A DNA stretch of 64,000 nt from a bacterium 1XD42-54. GTDB taxonomy: Bacteria; Bacillota; Clostridia; Lachnospirales; Lachnospiraceae. A program made the position numbers and the translations under genes. The notes below the pieces were generated by a model that saw nothing but the letters and a program-made list of their open reading frames with translations, searched no databases and was not told the origin of the DNA. Shown piece after piece: positions 12,894-27,047 of this stretch; within the stretch, counting starts at the first letter, position 1; each line of letters begins with the position of its first letter. The DNA lies in assembly GCA_003612585.1 (NCBI GenBank), contig RAZH01000001.1, forward strand, positions 434,001 through 498,000. Direction: 5' to 3'.

Positions 12894-13601
12894 CTATACT
12901 GCCATTCTGGACACCTTTTCTGAATATCCGGCGCCTTTCCAGCCCAATACCTGAATACTTTTCCGTTTAATCTTGATAATCTTCTCTGCCTCCATCTTCT
13001 TGAGAAGCCTGGAAACCACCTCTCTCGACGTTGCAAGCTCGTCCGCCAAATTCTCATGCGTCACAAGAACTGTATCCGTTCTGTACTGATCACAGTATTC
13101 ATAAAGTTTTTTTCTCAGTCTTTCTTTCAATGAAAGGAAGCTCAGATCATTTATCAACTCCAGAAGCTTTGTAAACGCTTTCACATAACACTGCTCCTGC
13201 CACTTTCTCACATCTGCACACTCACTGTACATCCGCGCGCTCAGCTGTTCCGGAATATAGTACAACTCTGTCTCACCGACACATACGACCTCGATGCTGT
13301 ATTCGTGTGAATCCAGACACAATGCCGGCAAAGTAAATCCGGAATTCTCCGGAAGAATCTTCTGAAGTACGATCGTTCTTCCTTCTTCATCTCTCATAAT
13401 CAGATGCAGCTCCCCCTTCAGCAATGCCCAGATTTTCCTTCCGCTGAGTATTTCTTCTGCATCAACACTTTCTGAATCTTCAAATCTGCACAAAACGGCC
13501 TTTTCTCTGATTTCTGCCTTCATTTGAACCTTTAAGCTTTCCAAACACCCTCCCCCTAATATCGTCTGACACTTATCAAGAGTTGCTCTGCTTTTTTCCA
13601 T
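12894..13601 (-). CDS. Crp/Fnr family transcriptional regulator
   Basis: About 235 residues: a cyclic-nucleotide-binding-like beta-barrel (about residues 25-130) followed by a Crp-type helix-turn-helix. The recognition helix reads TSREVVSRLLKKMEAEKII, preserving the Arg-Glu-x-x-x-Arg pattern by which E. coli CRP reads TGTGA half-sites. No Cys cluster for an iron-sulfur centre is seen. The start at 13601 follows GGGAGGAGAATT. The gene lies beside the LacI-kinase gene and the nucleoside operon, which carries TGTGA-N6-TCACA operators (27032-27047; 22996-23011), so I infer it may activate that operon. The ligand is unknown. Confidence 0.9.
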   Translation of the reverse strand: MEKSRATLDKCQTILGGGCLESLKVQMKAEIREKAVLCRFEDSESVDAEEILSGRKIWALLKGELHLIMRDEEGRTIVLQKILPENSGFTLPALCLDSHEYSIEVVCVGETELYYIPEQLSARMYSECADVRKWQEQCYVKAFTKLLELINDLSFLSLKERLRKKLYEYCDQYRTDTVLVTHENLADELATSREVVSRLLKKMEAEKIIKIKRKSIQVLGWKGAGYSEKVSRMAV

Positions 13602-13710
13602 AATTCTCCTCCCAATACATAGCAAACCTGTGTTAGTGGCCTCATCATTTCATCACAATGTGCATATTATACTGTGAAATCTTTTTCCTAAAGCATTTTC
13701 TTATGTTATA

Positions 13711-14093: not shown

Positions 14094-16001
14094 ATGACTA
14101 TTAAAGATATAGCCGGGTTAGCCGGTGTCTCAATATCCACAGTTTCCAAAATTATCAACGGCAAAGATGAACACATTAACCCCCAGACGCGTACAAGAGT
14201 TTTGCAGATTGTAAAAGAATACAATTTCACTCCATACGCTGCTGTCAAAAGCTCGCCGGATGCCAAAAAATTTCTGCTCGGTGTTCTGCTGCACTCTTCC
14301 CGCGCTTCTGCCTCGCTTCTCAGTGGCATTTTGCAGAGCGCCCAGGAACACAGTTATGGAATTTTGTTGTTAGAAAGCAAGGGCGATCCTCAGCAGGAAG
14401 CAAAGCATATTTCTACGCTCTGCCGTAATGGCATTGATGGCCTTCTCTGGGAACCAAGTTCTGCTGATCTTTCTTCCCACTGTGATTTTCTGAAACGCCA
14501 GAAAATACCATATTATTTTATTGGAAACACACCACATACCCCTGCTTTTGAAATTGACTTTTCCCAGCTCGGATACTATTTGGCAGATATTCTGATTCGC
14601 AAAAATCATACTTCGATCGTCTGTTTTCCCGGCGAAGACGGTCAGCGCTCAGCACTCTTTCAAAAAGGATTCTGCAAATGCCTTTATGAACATCAAATCT
14701 CCTGCCCTGAGCATCTGATTCAACGCACGTTTGATGAAACCTTTCTTCATAAAATCTTGCAGTATAATATCACAGCTGCAATTTGCGCCGACTTTAAAAC
14801 AGCACGCGCACTTTACGATGCACTGCAACGGCAGCATTACGAAATTCCTTCGGATTTCTCTTTGCTTAGCCTGAACGATCATGATAACCCGCACGAAAAT
14901 AACTTTGTTTCTGCGGTTATGATTCCATATCATGCCTTTGGACAGCACGCCTGCCAGGAACTGATCGGCATCTGCGAAAAATCATCCCAGGATAGCCCTG
15001 TATTCATGTATACGCCGTCTTGCAGCCTGAATCACGAATGTTCCATCAGCTATCCTGCCTTTATGCAGGAAAAGTTCTTTATTTCTGTCGGAAGTATTCA
15101 TAAGGATATTACGTTCAACGTAAATGCGCTTCCTCAGCTGGGAAGCACTCTGAAAATTCACAATTCTGCCACTTCAATCGGTGGAAAAGGAGCCAACCAG
15201 GCAGTGGGAGTGGCAAAGCTCGGACACGCGGTTCATCTGATTGGCGCAGTCGGAAATGATTTTGATGCTACTTTTATTTTAAATATGCTCGAAAAAGAAA
15301 ATGTCTCAACACAGGGAATCTTCCGAAACAAAAAGGCCAGGAGCGGAAAAGCATATATTTATGCAGAAAGCAGCGGCGAAAGTGCCATAACGGTTCTTTC
15401 CGGGGCCAACGACTGTCTGACACCAGAAAATATTCAAAACAGCGAATATCTCTTCAAAAACGCATGCTACTGCCTGATATCCGGTGAAATTCCATTAGAC
15501 ACCGTAATTCTTTCTGCCCAAATGGCCAAAAAACACCATGTTACAACTGTTTTCAAGCCATCTACGCTGGAGCAGCTGCCGGAAGCGCTGTATCAGACGG
15601 TCGACATGTTGGTTCCCAACCGTAAAGAAGCATCCTCGCTTTGTCCCGGTTGTACTTCTGTAGAGGAACAGGCAGAATACTTTTTTGGCAAAGGCATCCC
15701 CATCGTTATCATTACACTGGGGCACGAGGGATGTTACCTCAAAACAGCTGCTATTTCCCAGTATTTTCCGGCAGCCGAGATGGAAGCCTGCGATACCACA
15801 GGCGGCGCCGATGCATTTATTTCGGCACTTGTTTCTTATCTACATACAGGCTATTCGCTCACACGCTCTATACAAATTGCCATGTACGCATCTGCATTCT
15901 GTATCGCAAGGCAGGGCGTTACCTCTGCGTTGATCGACAAAACCAGTCTTGAGGTATATATTGGCAGGACACAGCCGGAGCTGCTCATTGAGCGAGACTG
16001 A
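14094..16001 (+). CDS. LacI-type regulator fused to a ribokinase (PfkB) domain
   Basis: A 635-residue fusion. Residues 1-50 are a LacI helix-turn-helix (MTIKDIAGLAGVSISTVSKI and hinge); about 55-320 form a degenerate periplasmic-binding-like sensor domain; about 325-630 form a ribokinase-fold domain (FISVGSIHKDITF; SIGGKGANQAVGVAKLG at about 363; IVIITLGHEGCYLKT; DTTGGADAF with the catalytic-position Asp at about 570). The usual ribokinase anion hole GAGD reads GGAD, but the Asp is kept. The gene converges on the rbsC-like gene across a shared terminator. It probably represses or activates the neighbouring nucleoside/ribose operon; whether the kinase domain is active or a sugar/ATP sensor cannot be told. 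No frameshift joins the two parts, so it is a true single ORF. Confidence 0.9.
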   Translation: MTIKDIAGLAGVSISTVSKIINGKDEHINPQTRTRVLQIVKEYNFTPYAAVKSSPDAKKFLLGVLLHSSRASASLLSGILQSAQEHSYGILLLESKGDPQQEAKHISTLCRNGIDGLLWEPSSADLSSHCDFLKRQKIPYYFIGNTPHTPAFEIDFSQLGYYLADILIRKNHTSIVCFPGEDGQRSALFQKGFCKCLYEHQISCPEHLIQRTFDETFLHKILQYNITAAICADFKTARALYDALQRQHYEIPSDFSLLSLNDHDNPHENNFVSAVMIPYHAFGQHACQELIGICEKSSQDSPVFMYTPSCSLNHECSISYPAFMQEKFFISVGSIHKDITFNVNALPQLGSTLKIHNSATSIGGKGANQAVGVAKLGHAVHLIGAVGNDFDATFILNMLEKENVSTQGIFRNKKARSGKAYIYAESSGESAITVLSGANDCLTPENIQNSEYLFKNACYCLISGEIPLDTVILSAQMAKKHHVTTVFKPSTLEQLPEALYQTVDMLVPNRKEASSLCPGCTSVEEQAEYFFGKGIPIVIITLGHEGCYLKTAAISQYFPAAEMEACDTTGGADAFISALVSYLHTGYSLTRSIQIAMYASAFCIARQGVTSALIDKTSLEVYIGRTQPELLIERD

Positions 16002-16089
16002 CATGTTTCGCTCCGTGTTTTTCTGCAGCCAGAACTGTTTTCCCTATTTTTCTCATATATAAGCAACATGTGAATGAAATAATCTAAAT

Positions 16090-16126
16090 AAAAAGCTTCC
16101 ACAGTATTTCGCTGTGGAAGCTTTTT
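16090..16126. terminator. Bidirectional terminator
   Basis: A perfect 15-bp inverted repeat (AAAAAGCTTCCACAG, 7-nt loop, CTGTGGAAGCTTTTT) with A and T tracts on both sides. It serves the converging LacI-kinase and rbsC-like genes. Confidence 0.92.
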
Positions 16127-16180
16127 ATTATATTTTCTCTTTCCCATTTCTGGTTACAGACACTTTATTGCTGTATCTGA

Positions 16181-17137
16181 TTATTTTTTCTGTTTCATCA
16201 ACATATTGCCCTGTACGATCTCAATGTAAGCTGCTACGATGATTACAAGACCTGTTACGATGAACTGATAGAATGTATCAACACCGAGTACGACAAGTCC
16301 AACCTTCAGCGCTGAGAAAAGTACAGCTCCGATTACAGTACCGAATACATTTCCGCGGCCACCTGCCATGGAAGTACCACCGATTGCTGCTGCTGCGATT
16401 GCATCAAGCTCATAGCCCTGACCTGTAGACGGGTCACCCGTTCCAAGACGGCCAATGATAACCAGAGCTGCCAGCGTTGTTCCCAGCATACCGATTCCAT
16501 ACAAAAGTACCTTTGTACGCTCTACACGTACACCGGAAAGTCTTGCTGCATCTTCATTACCACCAACTGCATACGCATATGTTCCGATTTTCATTTTCTT
16601 CAGAACAAAGGTAATAATAATTGCAAATACAAAGAATACAACTACAGAAAATGTAAATACAGAAGTAATCTTAAAGTTAAATACATTTCTGTACTCTCTC
16701 GGTACGTTCAGTACCGGGAATCCACCCGTTACTACGTAACCAATACCACGATAAACCTGCATAGTTCCCATCGTAGCAACAAACGGCTGCAGTTTCATAA
16801 CGCCAACCAGAACGCCGTTGATTGCTCCAAGCAGAAAACCAAGTCCGAGACACAGGATAATCCAAAGCGGGATCGGAACCCCTGCTTTTGCCATCTGTGC
16901 GCCTGCACACGCTACCAGAGCCAATACTGAACCAACCGAAAGGTCAATTCCGCCTGTGATGATAACGCATGTCATTCCAATACCCATCAAGCCATATGTA
17001 ACTGCCTGTGTAATAATCGTTGCAATATTCGTCGTAGAAAGATAGGAATGTTCCAATATACTGAATACAATAATCGTAACAAACAGTGCAATCAGAACGC
17101 TCCACTCTCTGCGGTATTTTTTATAAATAGCATTCAT
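16181..17137 (-). CDS. Ribose-type ABC transporter permease (RbsC family)
   Basis: A 318-residue membrane protein with 8-10 hydrophobic segments. It contains the family stretch GIGMTCVIITGGIDLSVGSV and the cytoplasmic EAA-like loop YAVGGNEDAARLSGVRV that contacts the ATPase; ATGGTSMAGGRG-like sequence (IGGTSMAGGRGNVFGT) is also diagnostic. It is the last gene of the operon and overlaps the ATPase stop by one base (TAATG). It imports a sugar, most likely ribose or a nucleoside-derived pentose given the neighbouring nucleoside hydrolases and ribokinase. Confidence 0.93.
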   Translation of the reverse strand: MNAIYKKYRREWSVLIALFVTIIVFSILEHSYLSTTNIATIITQAVTYGLMGIGMTCVIITGGIDLSVGSVLALVACAGAQMAKAGVPIPLWIILCLGLGFLLGAINGVLVGVMKLQPFVATMGTMQVYRGIGYVVTGGFPVLNVPREYRNVFNFKITSVFTFSVVVFFVFAIIITFVLKKMKIGTYAYAVGGNEDAARLSGVRVERTKVLLYGIGMLGTTLAALVIIGRLGTGDPSTGQGYELDAIAAAAIGGTSMAGGRGNVFGTVIGAVLFSALKVGLVVLGVDTFYQFIVTGLVIIVAAYIEIVQGNMLMKQKK

Positions 17138-18630
17138 TATACATCTTCCTCCACAGTATAATTCAGAATTCTTTCCTCAGAGAACTCTTCTTTCATAAGC
17201 TCTCCTGAGATCTCTCCTTCACGCATAACCAGGATACGATCACTCATACCCATAATTTCTGTCAGCTCCGAAGAAACCATGATGATTGCGATACCTTTTT
17301 CTGCCATCTTCTCCATCAGAAGGTAAATCTCTGATTTTGCACCGATATCAATACCCTTCGTCGGCTCGTCAAAAATCATGACAGATGCATCTGTTGACAT
17401 CCAGCGGGCAAGGATTACCTTCTGTGCATTTCCACCGGAAAGACTTACTGTCATAAATTCCGGATCGTTCGGCTTCAGGCCTACCTGAGTTCCCTTGTCC
17501 TTAGCATTTGCGTTCTTCTTTGCACTGTTAATTACAAAGCCTGACATGTATTTTTCCATGCTTGCCAGAGCCATGTTATCCATGTTGTTGAAGTTCGGCA
17601 TGATACCTTCTTCTTTACGGTTTTCTGAAATCAATGCAATTCCCTGCTTGATCGCATCATTCGGCAATTTGCAGTGGATCTCTTTTCCATTCAGGAAAAC
17701 CTGCCCTGATGTACGGGGATCTGCTCCGAAAATCGCACGCATAACTTCCGTACGTCCAGCTCCTACCAAGCCGAAAAATCCAAGAATTTCGCCCGGGTAC
17801 AGATCAAAGCTGACATTTTTAAACATGCCACCGCTTAAGTTCTTCACCTGAAGAACTGGCGTACTTCCTCTCTTCTGACAAGGCATTGTACGTTTTGCAA
17901 ACAGTGAAATGTCACGGCCTACCATAGCCTGAACCACTTCATCACGTGTTGTCTTGTCCATCTCAATTGTTCTAATAAACTTTCCATCGCGCAGTACCGT
18001 TGAACGATCACACATCCGGAAAATTTCATTCATTTTATGGCTGATATATAAAATCGTAATTCCCGCATTCTTCAGCTCATGCATGATTCCAAATAATGTC
18101 TCTACCTCTTTGTCACTCAGAGAGGCAGTCGGCTCGTCAAAGGAAATCACCTGCGCATTTACCTCCAGCGCCTTCGCGATAGCAATCATCTGCTTCTGTC
18201 CGGCTGATAAATCTCCCATCCGGTCTGTCGGCCGAAAGTCGCAGTTCAATCGCTTTAAAAGCTCTGCGGTATCTGCATTCATCTTCTGTTTATCAATAAT
18301 TCCGAACCTACCCGGCTCTTTTCCCATAAACATATTTTCAGCGACCGTCATATCCGGAATGCTGACGATCTCCTGGTGAACCTTTGCGATTCCAAAATCA
18401 ATCGCATCCGCTATATTGGAAAATTTTGCCGGCTTTCCCTCTATCCGGATCTCGCCTGAGGTCGCCGGAAAAACTCCGTGCAGAATATTAAGCAGCGTAC
18501 TCTTTCCCGCTCCATTTTCTCCGATGATCGCATGGATTTCTCCTTTGCGGATCGAAAAACTGACATCGTCCAGAGCCTTCTGCCCGGGGAAAGTCTTGAC
18601 AATATGTTCAAATTCAATGAATTTATCCAT
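17137..18630 (-). CDS. Sugar ABC transporter ATP-binding protein (RbsA family, duplicated ATPase)
   Basis: A 497-residue protein with two tandem ABC domains, as in RbsA/MglA. The first has GENGAGKST, DLSAGQKQM and ISFDEPTASL; the second has a degenerate Walker A (GLVGAGRTE), a good signature (SLSGGNAQKV) and MIFDEPTKGID. The asymmetry is usual for this family. It starts at ATG 18630 after GGAGGATGTATCA, 81 bp downstream of the binding-protein gene, and powers the RbsC-type permease. Confidence 0.95.
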   Translation of the reverse strand: MDKFIEFEHIVKTFPGQKALDDVSFSIRKGEIHAIIGENGAGKSTLLNILHGVFPATSGEIRIEGKPAKFSNIADAIDFGIAKVHQEIVSIPDMTVAENMFMGKEPGRFGIIDKQKMNADTAELLKRLNCDFRPTDRMGDLSAGQKQMIAIAKALEVNAQVISFDEPTASLSDKEVETLFGIMHELKNAGITILYISHKMNEIFRMCDRSTVLRDGKFIRTIEMDKTTRDEVVQAMVGRDISLFAKRTMPCQKRGSTPVLQVKNLSGGMFKNVSFDLYPGEILGFFGLVGAGRTEVMRAIFGADPRTSGQVFLNGKEIHCKLPNDAIKQGIALISENRKEEGIMPNFNNMDNMALASMEKYMSGFVINSAKKNANAKDKGTQVGLKPNDPEFMTVSLSGGNAQKVILARWMSTDASVMIFDEPTKGIDIGAKSEIYLLMEKMAEKGIAIIMVSSELTEIMGMSDRILVMREGEISGELMKEEFSEERILNYTVEEDV

Positions 18631-18711
18631 TGATACATCCTCCGTCTGAAGTTCTCTTTTTCTTTCATAAAGGAAAGGGGGCGCTTACGCTGCCCCCCTT
18701 TGTACTAACAA

Positions 18712-19785
18712 TTACTCAAAAATCGGGCTATACTCATAACCAAAGATTTCTTCGAAGGACTGCTCGATGTTAGAGGAGTCACGTACGCACTGCGGAGCGT
18801 AGATAACCTTCGGAAGTTCCTGGCCTGCAAGTTTACGAACCTGCATTTCAACTGCGATCTGAGACATAATGTTCGGGAAGAAGTCTACAGTACCATCAAG
18901 CTCACCAGCTTTGATAGACTCTGTTGCTTCACTTGTTCCGTCTGTACCAACGATTACACAGTCGCTTTCAGCAGCGATAACTGCTTCCAGAGCGCCCATT
19001 GCCATTGTGTCGTTGTTGCAGTAGATACCAGCCAGATCCGGATGCTGCTGAAGCAGTGTCTCTGTGATATCATAAGCTTTCTGACGATCCCAGTCACCAT
19101 TCTGAACTGCTACGATTTCGATGTCTGCTTTGTCTGCATAGAAGTCATTGAATCCCTGTGTACGAGCCTGAGCTGCCGTTGCCTGGGAAAGACCTGTGAT
19201 ACAAGCTACTTTGCCCTTCTGGCCGATTGTATTGTAGATCCACTCAGCGCCCTGTACGCCTGCCTGATAATGCCAAGCGCCTACTGTTGTAGATGCATAC
19301 GGTGTGAATGCGTCCATAACGGTTGTCATGTCAATGCCTGCTTCCAGAGCTGCTTCCATACCCGGAACAAGGTTTGCATCTGAAATACCAGAAACAAGAA
19401 CTGCATCGTATCCCTTGTTAACCATGTCAAGCATAAGTGTCAGCTGACCTTCTTCGTCTGTCTCAGTCTGAGCGCCACGAACGTCAAGTGTCAGATCATA
19501 TCCAGCGTCTGCGAAAGCTTTTCCAGCAATCTCAGCGCCTTCACCTTCCATACGCCAGAACTCGTTCTCGAATGTCTTTGTTGCGAAACCGATTGTAACA
19601 GCTTTGTCAAGCTTCGGAACTGCGCCAAGTTCTTCACGGATGTCGTTGTAGGAAACTGCATCTTTGTAGAAATCATATCCCTGCTCTGCTACATCTGCAC
19701 TCGGAAGATCTGCTTCTGCTGCAAATGCTGTCATGCTCATGGATGCTGCCATTGCCATAGCTGTTAATGCCATTAACTTTTTCAT
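18712..19785 (-). CDS. RbsB-type sugar-binding protein with plain signal peptide
   Basis: A 357-residue exported protein of the periplasmic-binding type I fold (VTIGFATKTFENEFWRMEGEG; YDAVLVSGISDANLVPGM; GIYCNNDTMAMGALEAV; VIVGTDGTSEA). The signal peptide (MKKLMALTAMAMAASMSMTAFA, about 22 residues) is followed by AEAD and has no lipobox cysteine. ABC binding proteins of monoderm bacteria are normally lipid-anchored, so this is odd: it may be wall-associated, released, or retained by partners. Gene order and the ABC genes downstream support a role in ribose or nucleoside-sugar uptake. The ribosome binding site AGGAGGACAAAAGTA is strong. Confidence 0.9.
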   Translation of the reverse strand: MKKLMALTAMAMAASMSMTAFAAEADLPSADVAEQGYDFYKDAVSYNDIREELGAVPKLDKAVTIGFATKTFENEFWRMEGEGAEIAGKAFADAGYDLTLDVRGAQTETDEEGQLTLMLDMVNKGYDAVLVSGISDANLVPGMEAALEAGIDMTTVMDAFTPYASTTVGAWHYQAGVQGAEWIYNTIGQKGKVACITGLSQATAAQARTQGFNDFYADKADIEIVAVQNGDWDRQKAYDITETLLQQHPDLAGIYCNNDTMAMGALEAVIAAESDCVIVGTDGTSEATESIKAGELDGTVDFFPNIMSQIAVEMQVRKLAGQELPKVIYAPQCVRDSSNIEQSFEEIFGYEYSPIFE

Positions 19786-19837
19786 TACTTTTGTCCTCCT
19801 AAATTATTACTTGTTTTATATATGTTACTTTGAAAAT

Positions 19838-19863
19838 CGGAGGGTTCTTATGTGAACCCGCCG
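19838..19863 (-). other. Intercistronic hairpin before the binding-protein gene
   Basis: On the minus strand CGG-C-GGGTTC, loop ACATAA, GAACCC-T-CCG, followed by ATTTTC. It lies between the small exported protein gene and the binding-protein gene. It may be a partial terminator or an mRNA-stabilising structure raising binding-protein expression. Confidence 0.5.
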
Positions 19864-19879
19864 TTTTTACCTGAATCTT

Positions 19880-20389
19880 TTACTCGAAGAAACAGAACTC
19901 TCCTTCTGTCAGCTCCAGCTCCGGAAGCATACCCGGTCTGTTATCATTTACATATCTGTCAGCGGTCGGTACCGTTACAGTAAATACGCCCTGTGTAATA
20001 CCTTCAGCTTCGCTTTCTTCCAGCGTAACCGTACTTACTACGTCCTTTCCCGCTGCTTTCTTTGCAAAATAATAGCCTGCAGAAGAGGTCTCGCTGCTCA
20101 TGATTTCGATCTGGGCAATCGCATTAGTATCCATCTCTTCACCAACTACCAGTTTCTTATTGAATACCAGAGCCATGGTAAAGTCATCGGATTTGAAGTT
20201 GTAAGTTGTACCAGTCATACCTTTCGTTGAACCGCTATACTCAAACTCTACTGCTTCGCCATTGATTTCAACTGCCAGCCAGCCAGTTCCTTCTTCCGGA
20301 GTATAGTTACGTTCTACATCTTCTGCTGCGCCTACGCTCATACCAACAAGCATCGTAGCTGCCAGAAGACCAATCATTTTCTTTTTCAT
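19880..20389 (-). CDS. Small exported protein of unknown function
   Basis: A 169-residue protein with a signal peptide (MKKKMIGLLAATMLVGMSVGA, probable cleavage near residue 21) and an acidic, beta-rich mature part (WLAVEINGEAVEFEYSGSTKG; GYYFAKKAAGKDV). There is no cysteine for lipidation and no transmembrane helix after the signal. I do not recognise the family. It sits in the operon between the second nucleoside hydrolase and the binding protein, so a role in binding or presenting nucleosides or sugar outside the cell is possible but unproven. Confidence 0.82.
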   Translation of the reverse strand: MKKKMIGLLAATMLVGMSVGAAEDVERNYTPEEGTGWLAVEINGEAVEFEYSGSTKGMTGTTYNFKSDDFTMALVFNKKLVVGEEMDTNAIAQIEIMSSETSSAGYYFAKKAAGKDVVSTVTLEESEAEGITQGVFTVTVPTADRYVNDNRPGMLPELELTEGEFCFFE

Positions 20390-20437
20390 ACGTCTTGTCC
20401 TCCTGAAATAGTTAATTATATGAAATTAAATTACAAT

Positions 20438-21559
20438 TTAGAACTGTGTACCGTAAAGCTGTGCTACGAACTGCCAGAATGCATCTCTGTCGATGTTAAA
20501 TACAACCTGTACATTTGTTGACTCGTACGGGCCCTCGCCAGTTGCCCATGTTACAGCATTTGCGTAGCTGTAGCTGGAACGGTTGCAGTCGATAGCCATA
20601 TCTCTGAACTCTGTTTCTGTGATCAGATCCGGGCAAAGGAAGATACCAGCTGTGATAGCATCCCAGCAGTAACCTGTCTTTGTCGGGTTTTCATCATATG
20701 TCGGTCCTACATTGTCGATGAATGCCTGAGAAACCGGTGTTCCCTGGTTGAACTCTTTGATCCAGTCGATAACGTCTTTTGCAAGAAGAACCTTGGAAGC
20801 GATGTCGTGCGGAACAACGATCTGATACGGGAAGTTATTGTTCAGACAGATCTGAACAGATTCCGGATCATAGAACCAGTTGAACTCACCACAAGCGTTT
20901 GCGTTACCAGGAACGTCAACAGCACCACCCATGTAAACGATACCTGCTGTGTTCTCAGCAAATGTCGGATCCATCATACAAGCAAGAGCTACGTTTGTAC
21001 AAGCACCGATAGCGAAGATCGTAACCTGTCCCGGGTTTTCTTTTACAGATTTGATCATGAACTCTGCTGCGTTCATATCTGTCTGTGCTTCTGTTGTTGA
21101 GTAACCATATTTCTCACTCTCAAGTGCGCCAAGATCATGATAGTTCTGCGGGCTTGTGTAGTTCTCAAGCTGACGGTATCCGCCTGTCCACATGAAACCA
21201 CCGGTAACCGGCTGATCTTTAGCCAGATCACGGAATCCCATAACCGGAACGTCTGTACCGATATAAACCGGGATGTCAGTACGCTCGATCATCTCAAGCT
21301 GATTCAGGATTGCGTTTACGCCTACTGCACAGATTTCGTTTCCACCTACAGATGTAACACCGAGGAAATCGACCCAGCCTGCTGCGTCTGCCTGTGCCAG
21401 AATAGACATACAGTACATGTCATCACCAAAATATCCCATATCACAGTCGAGGATAACTTTGTTGTCTTCTGCTGTAGTAACGATTTCATAATCCTCCAGT
21501 GCTGCGTATGCAGTTGCTGGTGCAAGCATTGTTCCCATCATGCCTGCTACCAGAGCCAA
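20438..21559 (-). CDS. Exported nucleoside hydrolase A (intact copy)
   Basis: About 373-380 residues of the inosine-uridine nucleoside hydrolase fold: VILDCDMGYFGDDMY near the N-terminus (Ca-binding Asp cluster, two residues longer than the classic DTDPGxDD), TIFAIGACTNVALA, YMGGAVDVPGNANACGEFNWFYDPE, and YCWDAITAG where many relatives have a His before the Asp. The hydrophobic segment ending APATAYAA is a signal peptide. TTG at 21559 is the first ordinary start, but it lacks the basic n-region; in-frame codons upstream encode Lys-rich residues and an ATA at 21580 is 10 nt from AGGAG, so translation may begin there. It would cleave nucleosides to base and ribose outside the membrane. Confidence 0.9.
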   Translation of the reverse strand: MALVAGMMGTMLAPATAYAALEDYEIVTTAEDNKVILDCDMGYFGDDMYCMSILAQADAAGWVDFLGVTSVGGNEICAVGVNAILNQLEMIERTDIPVYIGTDVPVMGFRDLAKDQPVTGGFMWTGGYRQLENYTSPQNYHDLGALESEKYGYSTTEAQTDMNAAEFMIKSVKENPGQVTIFAIGACTNVALACMMDPTFAENTAGIVYMGGAVDVPGNANACGEFNWFYDPESVQICLNNNFPYQIVVPHDIASKVLLAKDVIDWIKEFNQGTPVSQAFIDNVGPTYDENPTKTGYCWDAITAGIFLCPDLITETEFRDMAIDCNRSSYSYANAVTWATGEGPYESTNVQVVFNIDRDAFWQFVAQLYGTQF

Positions 21560-21613
21560 TGATAATACTTTCTTTTTTATAAGATTCTTTCTCCTTTTCT
21601 TTTTTATTATATT

Positions 21614-21639
21614 GCCGCAACCGTTTTCACCGTTGCGGC
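21614..21639 (-). other. Intercistronic hairpin between hydrolase genes
   Basis: GCCGCAAC (21614-21621) pairs with GTTGCGGC (21632-21639) around a 10-nt loop. On the minus strand it follows the hydrolase B stop and precedes the hydrolase A ribosome binding site; the downstream sequence is A-rich, not T-rich, so mRNA stabilisation or processing is likelier than termination. Confidence 0.55.
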
Positions 21640-21676
21640 GATATTTCGCAAATTAAATTTAGTGTAAAAATCCTAA

Positions 21677-22849
21677 TTACTGTACATCCATTGTCAGAAT
21701 GTCTACGTAGTAATTCCAGAATGCTTCTCTGTCGATATCGAATACTACGTCAACTTTCTGTACGCCGTACGGCATTCCTGTACCTGCTTCAACGTCACGG
21801 TTACGTGATGTCCACCAGCTTGTGGATCTTCCGTAGTTCGGGCCGTAAGTAGTATCTACTGTCAGGTAACGCTCCTGAACGTCTGTTGCGATTTCCGGAT
21901 GCATCCAGATAGCTGCTGTAATAGCATCCCATACGTAGCTGCTTGCTTCCGGGTTGTCCTCGAAACGCTGTTTCTGACCTTCTACGATCAGGTTAGAGAT
22001 TGCATTGCCCTGATTTTCAACAAGTCTGTCGTAAATGTCTTTGGTATAGAATACTGCTTCTGCTACATCGTTCGGAACGTCGATCTGGCTCTTCCACGGA
22101 GATTCCAGACAAATTCTGATACCTTCCGGATCGTAATACCAGTTGAACTCTGCCGCTGAACTGGAGTTTCCAGGAATATCAACTGCACCGCCCATGTAGA
22201 TAACACCTGCTGCATCCTCTACGATTGTCGGGTCTTTGCGAACTGCGAGCGCCATATTTGTACCAGCTCCGATTACAAAGATTGTAACTTCGCCCGGATA
22301 TTTATGTACCTGCTCGATGATGAAGTCAACTGCGTGCTCATCCTGTACTTCTGTCTCTGCATAGCCATATTTCGGCTCTGACGGCAGATTCTTGTAGTCT
22401 GTCGGACGCTCGTTTACGTCACAGAAATAGCTTGTGCCCCAATCCCAGTAAGCACCTGCGTACTCCGGCATACCCCAGATCTTGCTCTCTGCGTCAAGAT
22501 TGCGGAATCCCATCAGCGGCACATCGCATCCCAGGTATACCGGAATATCTTCACGGCCGATCAGCTCCAGCTGACGAAGTGCTGCGGTTGCTCCGGATGC
22601 ACACCAGGAGTTTCCTCCTACTGTTGTAATTCCAAGGAAATCACAGTTACCAAGTGAATCTTCCTGTGCAAGCATAAACATAACGATTGCATCGTCATTC
22701 AAATATCCCATATCTGTATCAAGAATCGCACGTTTCACTGCCGGTTCTGCTGCCTCTGATGCGGATACTGCTGCCGGAGCTGCCATTGTAAGTGCCATAC
22801 CTGCCGCGAGAGCCATTGCTACTAATTTCTTCATTTCTAATTTCTTCAT
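21677..22849 (-). CDS. Exported nucleoside hydrolase B (copy 1)
   Basis: A 390-residue exported protein. A signal peptide (about residues 1-30, ending AAPAAVSA) precedes AILDTDMGYLNDDAIV (Ca-binding Asp residues 44, 46, 52 and 53), VTIFVIGAGTNMALA, YMGGAVDIPGN and AEFNWYYDPEG, all hallmarks of nucleoside hydrolases; YVWDAITAAI carries Trp where the classic catalytic His stands. The start at 22849 follows AAGGAGGCAGAA; a 15-bp direct repeat encodes MKKLEMKKL. It has its own Crp-type site and candidate promoter upstream (22969-23011), so it may be expressed even though the kinase gene before it is broken. Predicted reaction: nucleoside plus water to ribose plus base. Copy 2 is identical in predicted protein. 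Confidence 0.93.
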   Translation of the reverse strand: MKKLEMKKLVAMALAAGMALTMAAPAAVSASEAAEPAVKRAILDTDMGYLNDDAIVMFMLAQEDSLGNCDFLGITTVGGNSWCASGATAALRQLELIGREDIPVYLGCDVPLMGFRNLDAESKIWGMPEYAGAYWDWGTSYFCDVNERPTDYKNLPSEPKYGYAETEVQDEHAVDFIIEQVHKYPGEVTIFVIGAGTNMALAVRKDPTIVEDAAGVIYMGGAVDIPGNSSSAAEFNWYYDPEGIRICLESPWKSQIDVPNDVAEAVFYTKDIYDRLVENQGNAISNLIVEGQKQRFEDNPEASSYVWDAITAAIWMHPEIATDVQERYLTVDTTYGPNYGRSTSWWTSRNRDVEAGTGMPYGVQKVDVVFDIDREAFWNYYVDILTMDVQ

Positions 22850-22968
22850 TTCTGCCTCCTTGTTAATTGCATATTGTTTTTGCCTTGGTCCGAATGTTTC
22901 TGCAATCGTGTTTTGGCGCCTTCCATACTGTCACAGAACATCCTGCCCCTGCGTTTTCATGTGACTTT

Positions 22969-23011
22969 ATTATCTACTTTTTCCTGTAATAAGTCTGTGA
23001 TACAAGTCACT
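22969..23011 (-). promoter_or_regulatory. Crp-type operator and promoter before hydrolase B (copy 1)
   Basis: TGTGATACAAGTCACT at 22996-23011 fits TGTGA-N6-TCACA with one mismatch. On the minus strand a GATAAT -10 (22974-22969) follows with no good -35 box. The site centre falls about 41.5 bp before the expected start point, the class II activator position. About 225 bp separate the kinase stop from the hydrolase start. Confidence 0.55.
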
Positions 23012-23073
23012 TTTGTTGGATTTTTTCAAGTCATTGTACAGCACTATTCAATTCTTCGGTGAAATGCACAATT

Positions 23074-23861
23074 TTAGCAAGCTACACTCTCTGTATCGTC
23101 TTTCACTTCTTCCATAGCCGGAATGGACGGCGCAGCCCCTGCACGGGACACTGCAATCGAAGAAGCCTTTGCCGCAAGCCGCAGCGCATCCTGCATGCTC
23201 TTACCTGCAATCACTGATGCAAGGAAAAAGCCGGTAAATGTATCTCCTGCTGCCGTTGTGTCCACGACATCCACTTTATAAATCTCCTGACACACCTTCT
23301 GCTTGCCGTCAAAAAATACAGAACCATTTTCTCCCAGCGTAAGTACGAATTTTGCTTTCGGAAAACGTTCTGCCAGACATGTCAGTATCTCATCCGCTTC
23401 TGTTCGGCCGGTAAACTGTCCTCCTTCAATCTCATTCAGAATAAACCAGTCGATCTTGGTCAAATCACACGCATCCAACTTACTATCAAACGGAGACGGA
23501 TTCAGTACGATCTTCATACCGCGCTCATACGCCTTTTCAATCACATAATCCAACAAATTAATCTCATTCTGCAGAACAATGTAATCTCCCTCTTCAAACT
23601 GTCCCAGCACTTCGTCAATATATTCTCTGGTCTGCATCTGGTTTGTTCCGCCATAGAGAATAATACAGTTCTGTCCGTTTTTGTCCGTTTGAATAATCGC
23701 ATGTCCACCCTTTGCCGGAAGCTTCTTTATATAAGAAGTATCCACTCCGTACTGCCGACAAATATCCAGAAGGAAATCCCCTTCCTCTCCAATCAAGCCT
23801 GCGTGATACACTGGAATCCCTGCCCTTGCAAGCGCAATGGACTGATTCAGCCCTTTTCCAC
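23074..23861 (-). pseudogene. Ribokinase, 5'-truncated duplicate
   Basis: This is the kinase copy cut by the duplication junction. It lacks about the first 36 residues, including the N-terminal strand, the lid and the first residues of the substrate-binding GGKG motif, while the catalytic DTTAAGDTF is intact. An in-frame GTG at 23811 could start a 245-residue product, but without the sugar-binding region an active kinase is unlikely. The rest matches the intact gene at 26069-26965 exactly. Confidence 0.9.
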
Positions 23862-24554
23862 ATCATAGAACCAGTTGAACTCACCACAAGCGTTTGCGTT
23901 ACCAGGAACGTCAACAGCACCACCCATGTAAACGATACCTGCTGTGTTCTCAGCAAATGTCGGATCCATCATACAAGCAAGAGCTACGTTTGTACAAGCA
24001 CCGATAGCGAAGATCGTAACCTGTCCCGGGTTTTCTTTTACAGATTTGATCATGAACTCTGCTGCGTTCATATCTGTCTGTGCTTCTGTTGTTGAGTAAC
24101 CATATTTCTCACTCTCAAGTGCGCCAAGATCATGATAGTTCTGCGGGCTTGTGTAGTTCTCAAGCTGACGGTATCCGCCTGTCCACATGAAACCACCGGT
24201 AACCGGCTGATCTTTAGCCAGATCACGGAATCCCATAACCGGAACGTCTGTACCGATATAAACCGGGATGTCAGTACGCTCGATCATCTCAAGCTGATTC
24301 AGGATTGCGTTTACGCCTACTGCACAGATTTCGTTTCCACCTACAGATGTAACACCGAGGAAATCGACCCAGCCTGCTGCGTCTGCCTGTGCCAGAATAG
24401 ACATACAGTACATGTCATCACCAAAATATCCCATATCACAGTCGAGGATAACTTTGTTGTCTTCTGCTGTAGTAACGATTTCATAATCCTCCAGTGCTGC
24501 GTATGCAGTTGCTGGTGCAAGCATTGTTCCCATCATGCCTGCTACCAGAGCCAA
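23847..24554 (-). pseudogene. Nucleoside hydrolase A, 3'-truncated duplicate
   Basis: It carries the signal peptide and the first about 230 residues of hydrolase A, up to GEFNWFYD, then runs into the kinase remnant and ends after four foreign residues (VEKG). The WDA region and the C-terminal helices are lost, so the product is probably inactive. The same unusual ATA codon (24575) stands where the intact copy seems to begin. Confidence 0.9.
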
Positions 24555-24671
24555 TGATAATACTTTCTTTTTTATAAGATTCTTTCTCCTTTTCTTTTTT
24601 ATTATATTGCCGCAACCGTTTTCACCGTTGCGGCGATATTTCGCAAATTAAATTTAGTGTAAAAATCCTAA

Positions 24672-25844
24672 TTACTGTACATCCATTGTCAGAATGTCTA
24701 CGTAGTAATTCCAGAATGCTTCTCTGTCGATATCGAATACTACGTCAACTTTCTGTACGCCGTACGGCATTCCTGTACCTGCTTCAACGTCACGGTTACG
24801 TGATGTCCACCAGCTTGTGGATCTTCCGTAGTTCGGGCCGTAAGTAGTATCTACTGTCAGGTAACGCTCCTGAACGTCTGTTGCGATTTCCGGATGCATC
24901 CAGATAGCTGCTGTAATAGCATCCCATACGTAGCTGCTTGCTTCCGGGTTGTCCTCGAAACGCTGTTTCTGACCTTCTACGATCAGGTTAGAGATTGCAT
25001 TGCCCTGATTTTCAACAAGTCTGTCGTAAATGTCTTTGGTATAGAATACTGCTTCTGCTACATCGTTCGGAACGTCGATCTGGCTCTTCCACGGAGATTC
25101 CAGACAAATTCTGATACCTTCCGGATCGTAATACCAGTTGAACTCTGCCGCTGAACTGGAGTTTCCAGGAATATCAACTGCACCGCCCATGTAGATAACA
25201 CCTGCTGCATCCTCTACGATTGTCGGGTCTTTGCGAACTGCGAGCGCCATATTTGTACCAGCTCCGATTACAAAGATTGTAACTTCGCCCGGATATTTAT
25301 GTACCTGCTCGATGATGAAGTCAACTGCGTGCTCATCCTGTACTTCTGTCTCTGCATAGCCATATTTCGGCTCTGACGGCAGATTCTTGTAGTCTGTCGG
25401 ACGCTCGTTTACGTCACAGAAATAGCTTGTGCCCCAATCCCAGTAAGCACCTGCGTACTCCGGCATACCCCAGATCTTGCTCTCTGCGTCAAGATTGCGG
25501 AATCCCATCAGCGGCACATCGCATCCCAGGTATACCGGAATATCTTCACGGCCGATCAGCTCCAGCTGACGAAGTGCTGCGGTTGCTCCGGATGCACACC
25601 AGGAGTTTCCTCCTACTGTTGTAATTCCAAGGAAATCACAGTTACCAAGTGAATCTTCCTGTGCAAGCATAAACATAACGATTGCATCGTCATTCAAATA
25701 TCCCATATCTGTATCAAGAATCGCACGTTTCACTGCCGGTTCTGCTGCCTCTGATGCGGATACTGCTGCCGGAGCTGCCATTGTAAGTGCCATACCTGCC
25801 GCGAGAGCCATTGCTACTAATTTCTTCATTTCTAATTTCTTCAT
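24672..25844 (-). CDS. Exported nucleoside hydrolase B (copy 2)
   Basis: Identical in predicted sequence to the protein at 21677-22849: signal peptide, DTDMGYLNDD metal site, MGGAVDIPGN and AEFNWYYDPEG. It follows the intact ribokinase gene by 224 bp, which include the second Crp-type site. Two full copies in one operon would raise the dose of this hydrolase relative to hydrolase A, of which only one copy is complete. Confidence 0.93.
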   Translation of the reverse strand: MKKLEMKKLVAMALAAGMALTMAAPAAVSASEAAEPAVKRAILDTDMGYLNDDAIVMFMLAQEDSLGNCDFLGITTVGGNSWCASGATAALRQLELIGREDIPVYLGCDVPLMGFRNLDAESKIWGMPEYAGAYWDWGTSYFCDVNERPTDYKNLPSEPKYGYAETEVQDEHAVDFIIEQVHKYPGEVTIFVIGAGTNMALAVRKDPTIVEDAAGVIYMGGAVDIPGNSSSAAEFNWYYDPEGIRICLESPWKSQIDVPNDVAEAVFYTKDIYDRLVENQGNAISNLIVEGQKQRFEDNPEASSYVWDAITAAIWMHPEIATDVQERYLTVDTTYGPNYGRSTSWWTSRNRDVEAGTGMPYGVQKVDVVFDIDREAFWNYYVDILTMDVQ

Positions 25845-25963
25845 TTCTGCCTCCTTGTTAATTGCATATTGTTTTTGCCTTGGTCCGAATGTTTCTGCAA
25901 TCGTGTTTTGGCGCCTTCCATACTGTCACAGAACATCCTGCCCCTGCGTTTTCATGTGACTTT

Positions 25964-26006
25964 ATTATCTACTTTTTCCTGTAATAAGTCTGTGATACAA
26001 GTCACT
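25964..26006 (-). promoter_or_regulatory. Crp-type operator and promoter before hydrolase B (copy 2)
   Basis: Duplicate of 22969-23011: TGTGATACAAGTCACT at 25991-26006 and GATAAT at 25969-25964 on the minus strand. Confidence 0.55.
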
Positions 26007-26068
26007 TTTGTTGGATTTTTTCAAGTCATTGTACAGCACTATTCAATTCTTCGGTGAAATGCACAATT

Positions 26069-26965
26069 TTAGCAAGCTACACTCTCTGTATCGTCTTTCA
26101 CTTCTTCCATAGCCGGAATGGACGGCGCAGCCCCTGCACGGGACACTGCAATCGAAGAAGCCTTTGCCGCAAGCCGCAGCGCATCCTGCATGCTCTTACC
26201 TGCAATCACTGATGCAAGGAAAAAGCCGGTAAATGTATCTCCTGCTGCCGTTGTGTCCACGACATCCACTTTATAAATCTCCTGACACACCTTCTGCTTG
26301 CCGTCAAAAAATACAGAACCATTTTCTCCCAGCGTAAGTACGAATTTTGCTTTCGGAAAACGTTCTGCCAGACATGTCAGTATCTCATCCGCTTCTGTTC
26401 GGCCGGTAAACTGTCCTCCTTCAATCTCATTCAGAATAAACCAGTCGATCTTGGTCAAATCACACGCATCCAACTTACTATCAAACGGAGACGGATTCAG
26501 TACGATCTTCATACCGCGCTCATACGCCTTTTCAATCACATAATCCAACAAATTAATCTCATTCTGCAGAACAATGTAATCTCCCTCTTCAAACTGTCCC
26601 AGCACTTCGTCAATATATTCTCTGGTCTGCATCTGGTTTGTTCCGCCATAGAGAATAATACAGTTCTGTCCGTTTTTGTCCGTTTGAATAATCGCATGTC
26701 CACCCTTTGCCGGAAGCTTCTTTATATAAGAAGTATCCACTCCGTACTGCCGACAAATATCCAGAAGGAAATCCCCTTCCTCTCCAATCAAGCCTGCGTG
26801 ATACACTGGAATCCCTGCCCTTGCAAGCGCAATGGACTGATTCAGCCCTTTTCCACCACTAAAAGTCTCCGACTTTGATGAAAGGATTGTCTCTCCACCC
26901 TCTACGATATGGTCTACTGTATAAACATAATCGATATTCAATGAACCAAAATTTAATACCTTCAT
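26069..26965 (-). CDS. Ribokinase-like PfkB family sugar kinase (intact)
   Basis: A 298-residue cytosolic kinase. NFGSLNIDYVYTVDHIVEGGET opens the fold, GGKGLNQSIALARAG (about residues 37-51) binds the sugar, NEIEGGQFTG and VLTLGENGSVFF are typical, and DTTAAGDTFTGFF carries the catalytic Asp243 with a complete anion hole. Ribokinase makes ribose 5-phosphate from ribose and ATP; the nucleoside hydrolases and RbsABC genes downstream make ribose the best guess, though other pentoses or nucleosides are possible. First gene of the operon, with ribosome binding site AAGGAGGCGGAAG, downstream of a near-palindrome and a Crp-type site. Confidence 0.9.
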   Translation of the reverse strand: MKVLNFGSLNIDYVYTVDHIVEGGETILSSKSETFSGGKGLNQSIALARAGIPVYHAGLIGEEGDFLLDICRQYGVDTSYIKKLPAKGGHAIIQTDKNGQNCIILYGGTNQMQTREYIDEVLGQFEEGDYIVLQNEINLLDYVIEKAYERGMKIVLNPSPFDSKLDACDLTKIDWFILNEIEGGQFTGRTEADEILTCLAERFPKAKFVLTLGENGSVFFDGKQKVCQEIYKVDVVDTTAAGDTFTGFFLASVIAGKSMQDALRLAAKASSIAVSRAGAAPSIPAMEEVKDDTESVAC

Positions 26966-26992
26966 CTTCCGCCTCCTTACACAAAAAAATAA

Positions 26993-27021
26993 GATCTTTA
27001 CAGTATCTTACCGTAAAGATC
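26993..27021 (-). promoter_or_regulatory. Near-perfect palindrome in the kinase operon promoter
   Basis: Thirteen-bp arms (GATCTTTACAGTA / TACCGTAAAGATC, one mismatch) flank TCT. It overlaps the expected -10 region and start point of the operon, 28 bp before the kinase ATG, and is followed on the minus strand by TTATTTTTTT. It could be the operator of the LacI-kinase fusion or an attenuator hairpin; position favours an operator. Confidence 0.55.
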
Positions 27022-27031
27022 CTCAATATGC

Positions 27032-27047
27032 TGTGATTTTCATCACA
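27032..27047 (-). promoter_or_regulatory. Crp/Fnr-family operator of the nucleoside operon
   Basis: TGTGATTTTCATCACA is a perfect TGTGA-N6-TCACA palindrome. A weak -10 (TAAGAT, minus strand 27010-27005) places its centre about 41.5 bp before the predicted start, as for class II activation. The Crp/Fnr protein at 12894-13601 has the matching recognition-helix residues. Confidence 0.65.

Follow-up and report, generated by a model that had tools for sequence, protein, structure and literature searches.

In which compartment are nucleosides split, and in which form does their sugar enter the cell? The question is raised by a gene run in a stretch of 64,000 nucleotides (hereafter the window) from the Lachnospiraceae bacterium 1XD42-54 (GCA_003612585.1, contig RAZH01000001.1, positions 434,001 to 498,000), whose source assembly holds a 3.70-Mb genome in 34 contigs. 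The run encodes two types of nucleoside hydrolase (NH) with signal-peptide-like N-termini, a ribokinase-like kinase, a small predicted exported protein, and a sugar ABC transporter. Sequence comparison makes it probable that the locus is a "cut first, import after" module of nucleoside catabolism. The two hydrolases, NH-A and NH-B, would cleave nucleosides (probably those of purines) on the outer side of the membrane, and the freed ribose would be bound and imported by the ABC transporter. RbsK, the kinase half of a LacI–PfkB fusion protein, or both would phosphorylate the ribose to ribose 5-phosphate, and the LacI half of the fusion would repress the genes until ribose or ribose phosphate appears.

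The minus strand is transcribed in the order rbsK, NH-A, truncated NH-B, truncated rbsK, NH-A, NH-B, the 169-amino-acid protein, binding protein, ATPase, and permease. tRNA-Gln lies directly upstream of rbsK. The plus-strand fusion gene converges with this run, and beyond it lies a Crp/Fnr regulator on the minus strand. Pfam and NCBIfam profile matches bear out the gene order and families named in the original prediction, which was also right that LacI and PfkB domains share a single protein and that two NH types with signal peptides stand in the run, but it overlooked a tandem duplication (NH-A twice, truncated NH-B and rbsK) and the ATA codon at the NH-B start. The features, in positions of the window, are as follows (pLDDT, predicted local distance difference test).

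27032-27047: Crp-type palindrome TGTGA-N6-TCACA, upstream of rbsK
26069-26965, minus strand: rbsK, ribokinase-like PfkB kinase of 298 amino acids, first gene of the run (PF00294; GGKGLNQ and DTTAAGD motifs)
25992-26005: Crp-type palindrome GTGA-N6-TCAC, upstream of the first NH; duplicated at 22997-23010
24672-25844, minus strand: NH-A copy 1, predicted exported nucleoside hydrolase of 390 amino acids (PF01156; signal-peptide-like N-terminus)
23862-26856: tandem duplication unit 2, 2,995 bp
23847-24575, minus strand: truncated NH-B copy with ATA start, ending after residue 238 of 380 at the duplication junction
23074-23811, minus strand: truncated rbsK copy, first listed start at residue 54, past the GGKG motif
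21677-22849, minus strand: NH-A copy 2, identical to copy 1 (AlphaFold2 model with NH fold, pLDDT 82)
20867-23861: tandem duplication unit 1, 2,995 bp, 100% identical to unit 2
20438-21580, minus strand: NH-B, second predicted exported nucleoside hydrolase, 380 residues, probable ATA start (PF01156)
19880-20389, minus strand: small protein of 169 amino acids, predicted exported, no known family (beta-rich, barrel-like model)
18712-19785, minus strand: RbsB/AlsB-type substrate-binding protein, signal peptide without lipobox (PF13407)
17137-18630, minus strand: sugar ABC transporter ATPase with two ABC domains (PF00005)
16181-17137, minus strand: sugar ABC transporter permease, single gene (PF02653)
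14094-16001, plus strand: fusion of a LacI-family regulator and a ribokinase-like PfkB kinase, 635 amino acids (PF00356, PF13377, PF00294)
12894-13625, minus strand: Crp/Fnr-family regulator (PF13545 above cut-off, PF00027 below)

NH-A and NH-B match PF01156 at 200 and 181 bits (cut-off, 34.2). D44, D46, D52, D53, N80, N228, E234, N236, and D308 are kept in all three full NHs of the window, and we take these residues to form the calcium and ribose sites. The calcium loop of the window NHs and of most aligned relatives reads DxDMGxxxDD, two residues longer than in the solved enzymes shown. Four proteins (NH-A, NH-B, the small protein, and the binding protein) have a hydrophobic N-terminus with a Lys-rich start and an AxA-like end, which is conserved across aligned orthologues. 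Signal peptides were judged by eye, and those of the NHs additionally by a heuristic hydrophobicity script; to this extent the signal peptides predicted for the four proteins hold, that of NH-B hinging on an ATA codon being read as start. Two more exported NHs lie on the organism's own contigs C7 (L039:9240-10427) and C23 (L040:9084-10205), with importer genes not adjacent, and the one on C23 is followed by an open frame of more than 3,000 codons. Some NH-A relatives (P0036, P0062, P0068, P0107) are fused to PF02557 domains or to PF01048, which we take to be a nucleoside-phosphorylase-type domain.

The residue before the last calcium Asp is Trp in the window NHs (W307–D308). The same position holds Trp in 18 and Tyr in two of the 20 aligned NHs labeled exported beside RbsB-type proteins, whereas 29 of 30 labeled cytosolic beside Bmp proteins have His and one has Asp. 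Across all 53 rows labeled exported, the position is Trp in 43, Tyr in six, and Phe in two; the single His and the single Asn belong to the mislabeled L167 and L181. According to PMC8910321, His marks group I NHs and Trp marks the purine-specific group II (IAG-NH). The Trp that stands where cytosolic NHs have His therefore hints at a predicted purine-nucleoside preference of the window enzymes. NH-A has, in addition, a Trp/Tyr-rich insertion at about residues 125–142, where model confidence is low (group II has a second Trp in the β3–α3 loop). Among solved structures, the NH-A model matches a purine-specific S. solfataricus NH best, with plant and pyrimidine-specific NHs next; the best solved matches of the NHs mix purine and pyrimidine enzymes, and trypanosomal IAG-NHs rank low among them.

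An argument for external cleavage is the transporter that accompanies each kind of NH. Exported NHs were collected by a genome_contigs scan (one genome per species, 84,980 species) with an alignment of four own exported NHs as query; the best 80 of its 119 confirmed stretches were retained. To these were added the surroundings of the fusion in 17 other genomes of the family, one NH locus without fusion (L167), and 20 further NH loci, sampled at one row in three from the top 60 rows, own ones excluded, that PF01156 gave in a search of the order. Signal peptides served to sort the NHs, and two profiles, RbsB-type and Bmp, to sort the binding proteins. Among the loci that have an NH and a classifiable binding protein, an exported NH accompanies an RbsB-type protein in 14 of 14 (window, L041, L042, L046, L048, L049, L051, L053, L056, L058, L060, L068, L100, L104), and a cytosolic NH accompanies Bmp in 19 of 19 (L155, L156, L158, L160–L164, L168–L177, L180; Fisher p ~1e-9). 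L053 was assigned to the exported class on inspection, the script having called no signal. Pfam confirmed eight Bmp proteins and seven RbsB-type proteins besides that of the window; the remaining assignments come from the profiles. The count sets aside the exported-NH loci lacking a strong RbsB-type hit (67 of 80; L064 and L065 are weak, with scores of 93 and 86), 12 loci of the added sets with an NH and neither binding protein, six fusion loci without a profile-found NH, and L166, which is the L058 locus. The cytosolic kind is present in the same organism as well: on its contig C31, a gene for a 314-amino-acid NH that lacks a signal peptide precedes those for Bmp, an ATPase, and two hydrophobic proteins taken to be permeases.

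A tree of 99 NHs (excluding 40 Burkholderiales loci, L166, and NHs shorter than 250 residues) separates the two kinds. One side holds 40 rows labeled cytosolic and two labeled exported (support 99/97), and the other holds 51 labeled exported and five labeled cytosolic, with a fork of only 83/28, 53 of these 56 rows grouping at 100/99; L154 stands alone on a very long branch. The compartment label changes eight times on the tree, compared with a mean of 33 in shuffles, and four of the seven odd labels proved on inspection to be script errors. Outside cleavage followed by sugar import, as originally proposed, is thus backed by a recurring pairing, whereas export, substrate, and sugar are predicted only.

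The importer has the CUT2/RbsABC layout of a PF13407 binding protein, a double-ABC ATPase, and a PF02653 permease, and no match to PF02608 (Bmp/PnrA) was found by Pfam in the binding protein. The ribose-specific NCBIfam cut-offs are missed by all three components (ribose permease, 231 of 398 bits; RbsA, 499 of 745; RbsB, 105 of 337), and the transporter is therefore termed RbsABC-type rather than RbsABC. The binding protein carries a conserved extension of about 35 residues past the signal peptide. A K[ST]xxN pattern is common to the six exported-NH-linked binding proteins with a visible start (L046, L048, L053, L056, L068, L104).

Among solved structures (PDB), both kinases, rbsK and the one within the fusion, have ribokinases as their best relatives; rbsK at 221 bits and the fusion at 246 bits miss the TIGR02152 ribokinase cut-off of 299.65 bits and are called ribokinase-like. 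A search with the fusion gave 502 proteins at E 0.001 or better (7,994 candidates scored), and PF00356 and PF00294 are both present in 120 of the 120 homologues listed. The fusion was found in 18 of 299 family genomes. An NH-family gene stands in its neighborhood in 14 of the 18, with an exported NH in the window and L166 and without a visible signal peptide in the other twelve; L150 has an ADP-ribosylglycohydrolase instead (fusion at L150:1-1530), and the remaining three stretches stop at a contig end. The term "dedicated", applied earlier to the fusion, does not survive this distribution, only two of the 14 NH-linked cases being exported. Because an NH-family or ADP-ribosylglycohydrolase gene lies near it in 15 of 18 genomes, the fusion appears to accompany N-ribosyl-cleaving enzymes in general. 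Divergent NH-family proteins lie near the fusion in L151, L153, and L154 (e.g., with a DTDTYNEIDDQ motif), and SBP_bac-type binding proteins stand beside those of L151 and L154, possibly a third layout.

The small protein, modeled mostly as beta strands (pLDDT 75), has 20 relatives at E 0.001 or better, and a Pfam domain was found in none of these. Among the module loci listed, it stands beside NH genes only.

The whole module recurs in L041, the closest relative found, and in L042, and Murimonas intestini (L058) has the module without NH-A; the convergent fusion and the Crp/Fnr gene accompany it in all three. Identity to the window is 91–100% for eight of nine genes and 78% for the small protein in L041, and 56–87% in L042. 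Partial versions occur in L043, L044, L045, L055, L060, and L062. Four exported NH genes stand in a row in L044 (L044:1489-6174); matches to rbsC and the PfkB kinase directly precede them, and the small protein follows. A sample of 60 relatives, 35 of them from the same genus, gave a best NH-A match with an E of 8e-17 and 34% identity over 108 residues, and none of the 35 same-genus genomes has a strong match; the module is thus patchy.

In the assembly, the duplication is a perfect identity over 2,995 bp with a junction lacking evident homology, which yields two identical NH-A genes, one full and one cut NH-B, and one rbsK fragment. L041 has single copies, and the duplication is therefore a recent event or an assembly product. 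NH-B reads KKKVLSLALVAG... behind the ATA codon, a Lys-rich start that no ATG, GTG, or TTG precedes, and its first listed start of these kinds is the TTG at 21559. In L041, ATG stands in place of ATA in an otherwise nearly identical leader, and the NH-B paralogue on contig C23 starts MKKALAT with ATG. Because both NH-B copies carry ATA (21580 and 24575), the change probably predates the duplication.

Control by Crp-type sites had also been proposed. The palindrome has three matches in the window against 0.73 expected, and 3 of 100 shuffles reach three; two of the three are the duplicated copy, and the palindrome alone is weak evidence. The predicted sites are nevertheless present, and the window, L041, L042, and L058 have them at two equivalent places, one ahead of rbsK and one ahead of the first NH: that at 27032-27047 is found in L041 and L058 and with one mismatch in L042, and that at 25992-26005 in all three relatives, in each of which a Crp/Fnr gene adjoins the module. 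A hairpin-like inverted repeat with a T run (26983-27021), which separates the Crp-type site from the ribosome-binding site of rbsK, is a possible attenuator; it is also present in L041 and is not visible by eye in L042 or L058.

Several observations weigh against ribose import after external cleavage. Export was called by eye and a heuristic script rather than a dedicated signal-peptide predictor. A lipobox is missing from the binding protein of the window, whose bacterium is presumed monoderm, and from those of L041, L042, L058, and L060. The four predicted exported proteins of the module appear unanchored. A lipobox is present in 20 of 20 Bmp proteins listed for comparison, and the own Bmp on C31 (L192:6714-7745) lacks one. 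A family search found no PF02872 5'-nucleotidase in the genome, and the step from nucleotide to nucleoside would thus need another enzyme, or free nucleosides as the source. As for the pairing, L046 holds both binding-protein types, the 67 exported-type loci without a strong RbsB-type protein in the fetched flank include some cut by contig ends, the sorting profiles were built partly from the same loci, and the exported loci came from an exported-NH search. The association is clean and phylogenetically close to one event: most of it goes back to a single deep split among the NHs, and 14 of 14 versus 19 of 19 are therefore not 33 independent events. The transporter components point partly away from ribose. 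The ATPase scores higher with AraG than with RbsA (583 versus 499 bits, both below cut-off), and the binding protein higher with the D-allose binding protein than with RbsB (152 versus 105 bits). The latter starts KTxxNxFW, the allose-binding-protein pattern, and has Phe where five of the five solved relatives shown have Gln; we presume that both the start and the Gln belong to the sugar pocket. It resembles allose-binding as much as ribose-binding proteins.

These transporter features, together with a Paenibacillus binding protein (L046) that matches 5dte, 4yle, and allose-binding proteins above ribose-binding ones, are what favors a rival in which the NHs are exported and the transporter serves another compound, such as an allose-like hexose or a modified pentose, the NHs acting on unusual ribosides or having a separate role. 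We regard this rival as unlikely: both kinases are nearest to ribokinases, the top NCBIfam match of the permease is the ribose permease, though below cut-off, and the fusion adjoins NH-family genes in most genomes that carry it (14 of 18). Moreover, for the Micromonospora binding protein (L048), the top matches 4yle and 5dte are followed by D-ribose-binding proteins, which rank above the allose-binding protein, and allose transport in E. coli takes ribose at low affinity. That the purpose is removal of bases or extracellular nucleosides (for nitrogen, purine salvage, or gut nucleoside signaling), with ribose uptake as a by-product, has a parallel in P. aeruginosa, whose periplasmic Nuh is argued to supply nitrogen or base rather than carbon (PMC5437708). 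It seems improbable for the present run, in which genes for a sugar-type importer and a ribokinase-like kinase stand together and no base-handling gene was recognized. A locus that is decaying or partly an assembly error, contributing little, would fit the perfect duplication and its junction, the truncated genes, the ATA start, and the lack of a strong NH-A match in the 35 same-genus genomes; we give this very little credence, the full-length genes of the run all being open and L041 having the same module unduplicated. A bolder form of the cut-first proposal, which we hold to be rather doubtful, is that, in a Gram-positive cell lacking an outer membrane, the exported hydrolases, the barrel-like protein, and the non-lipidated binding protein with its conserved N-terminal extension form an extracellular or wall-held complex that channels the ribose of purine nucleosides to the importer, that the fusion measures the ribose it phosphorylates, and that cut-first has been exchanged for import-first topology beside one regulator family.

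Placed among known systems, the cut-first layout is not new in outline, and the claim of an undescribed system was too strong: Nuh (PMC5437708, PMC5522865) and Bacteroides systems (PMC11699363) work alike in outline. Nuh of P. aeruginosa is described as a periplasmic NH that frees ribose from adenosine or inosine, the products being imported afterwards; a lack of known nucleoside importers has been suggested as a reason for its location, and ribose use is poor in P. aeruginosa (PMC5437708, PMC5522865). By this description, the hydrolase outside the inner membrane and uptake after cleavage are shared with the present module, whereas the Gram-negative host, quorum-sensing control, and base or nitrogen supply as the argued aim are not (PMC5437708, PMC5522865). 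The ribose-utilization systems of Bacteroides thetaiotaomicron are outlined as gene clusters for carbon use from nucleotides and nucleosides in the gut (PMC11699363, citing Glowacki et al., 2020); as described, nucleoside use via gene clusters is shared, and the host differs in belonging to the Bacteroidota. In the Bifidobacterium RbsR2 regulon, a LacI-type RbsR controls rbsK and ribonucleoside hydrolase genes; unlike in the window, regulator and ribokinase are separate genes, and ribonucleoside transporters are predicted, implying import before cleavage (PMC4746261).

The nearest comparison lies within the Lachnospiraceae, where clusters of Bmp/PnrA, cytosolic NH, and fusion (L155, L156, L158, L160–L164) share the regulator–kinase fusion and an NH with the window and, in five of the eight (L155, L156, L160–L162), a separate PfkB kinase. 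They differ in that their NH has no signal peptide and, in every row except one, carries His ahead of the last Asp, that their Bmp binding protein is a lipoprotein, and that they hold further permease genes. Beside the same regulator family, the module appears to stand in place of this arrangement of Bmp import and cytosolic splitting. It is a rarely seen version of the cut-first layout: a Gram-positive one that combines two types of exported NH with an exported orphan protein and a regulator–kinase fusion.

The comparison links the compartment in which an NH works to the type of transporter that accompanies it, and offers a sequence marker for the two layouts, an aromatic residue or His before the last calcium Asp. 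The fusion lends itself to testing whether an enzyme can sense its own substrate. A further prediction is that free bases and ribose pass from some gut Lachnospiraceae into the shared medium, which would alter the movement of nucleosides such as inosine and adenosine between microbes and host.

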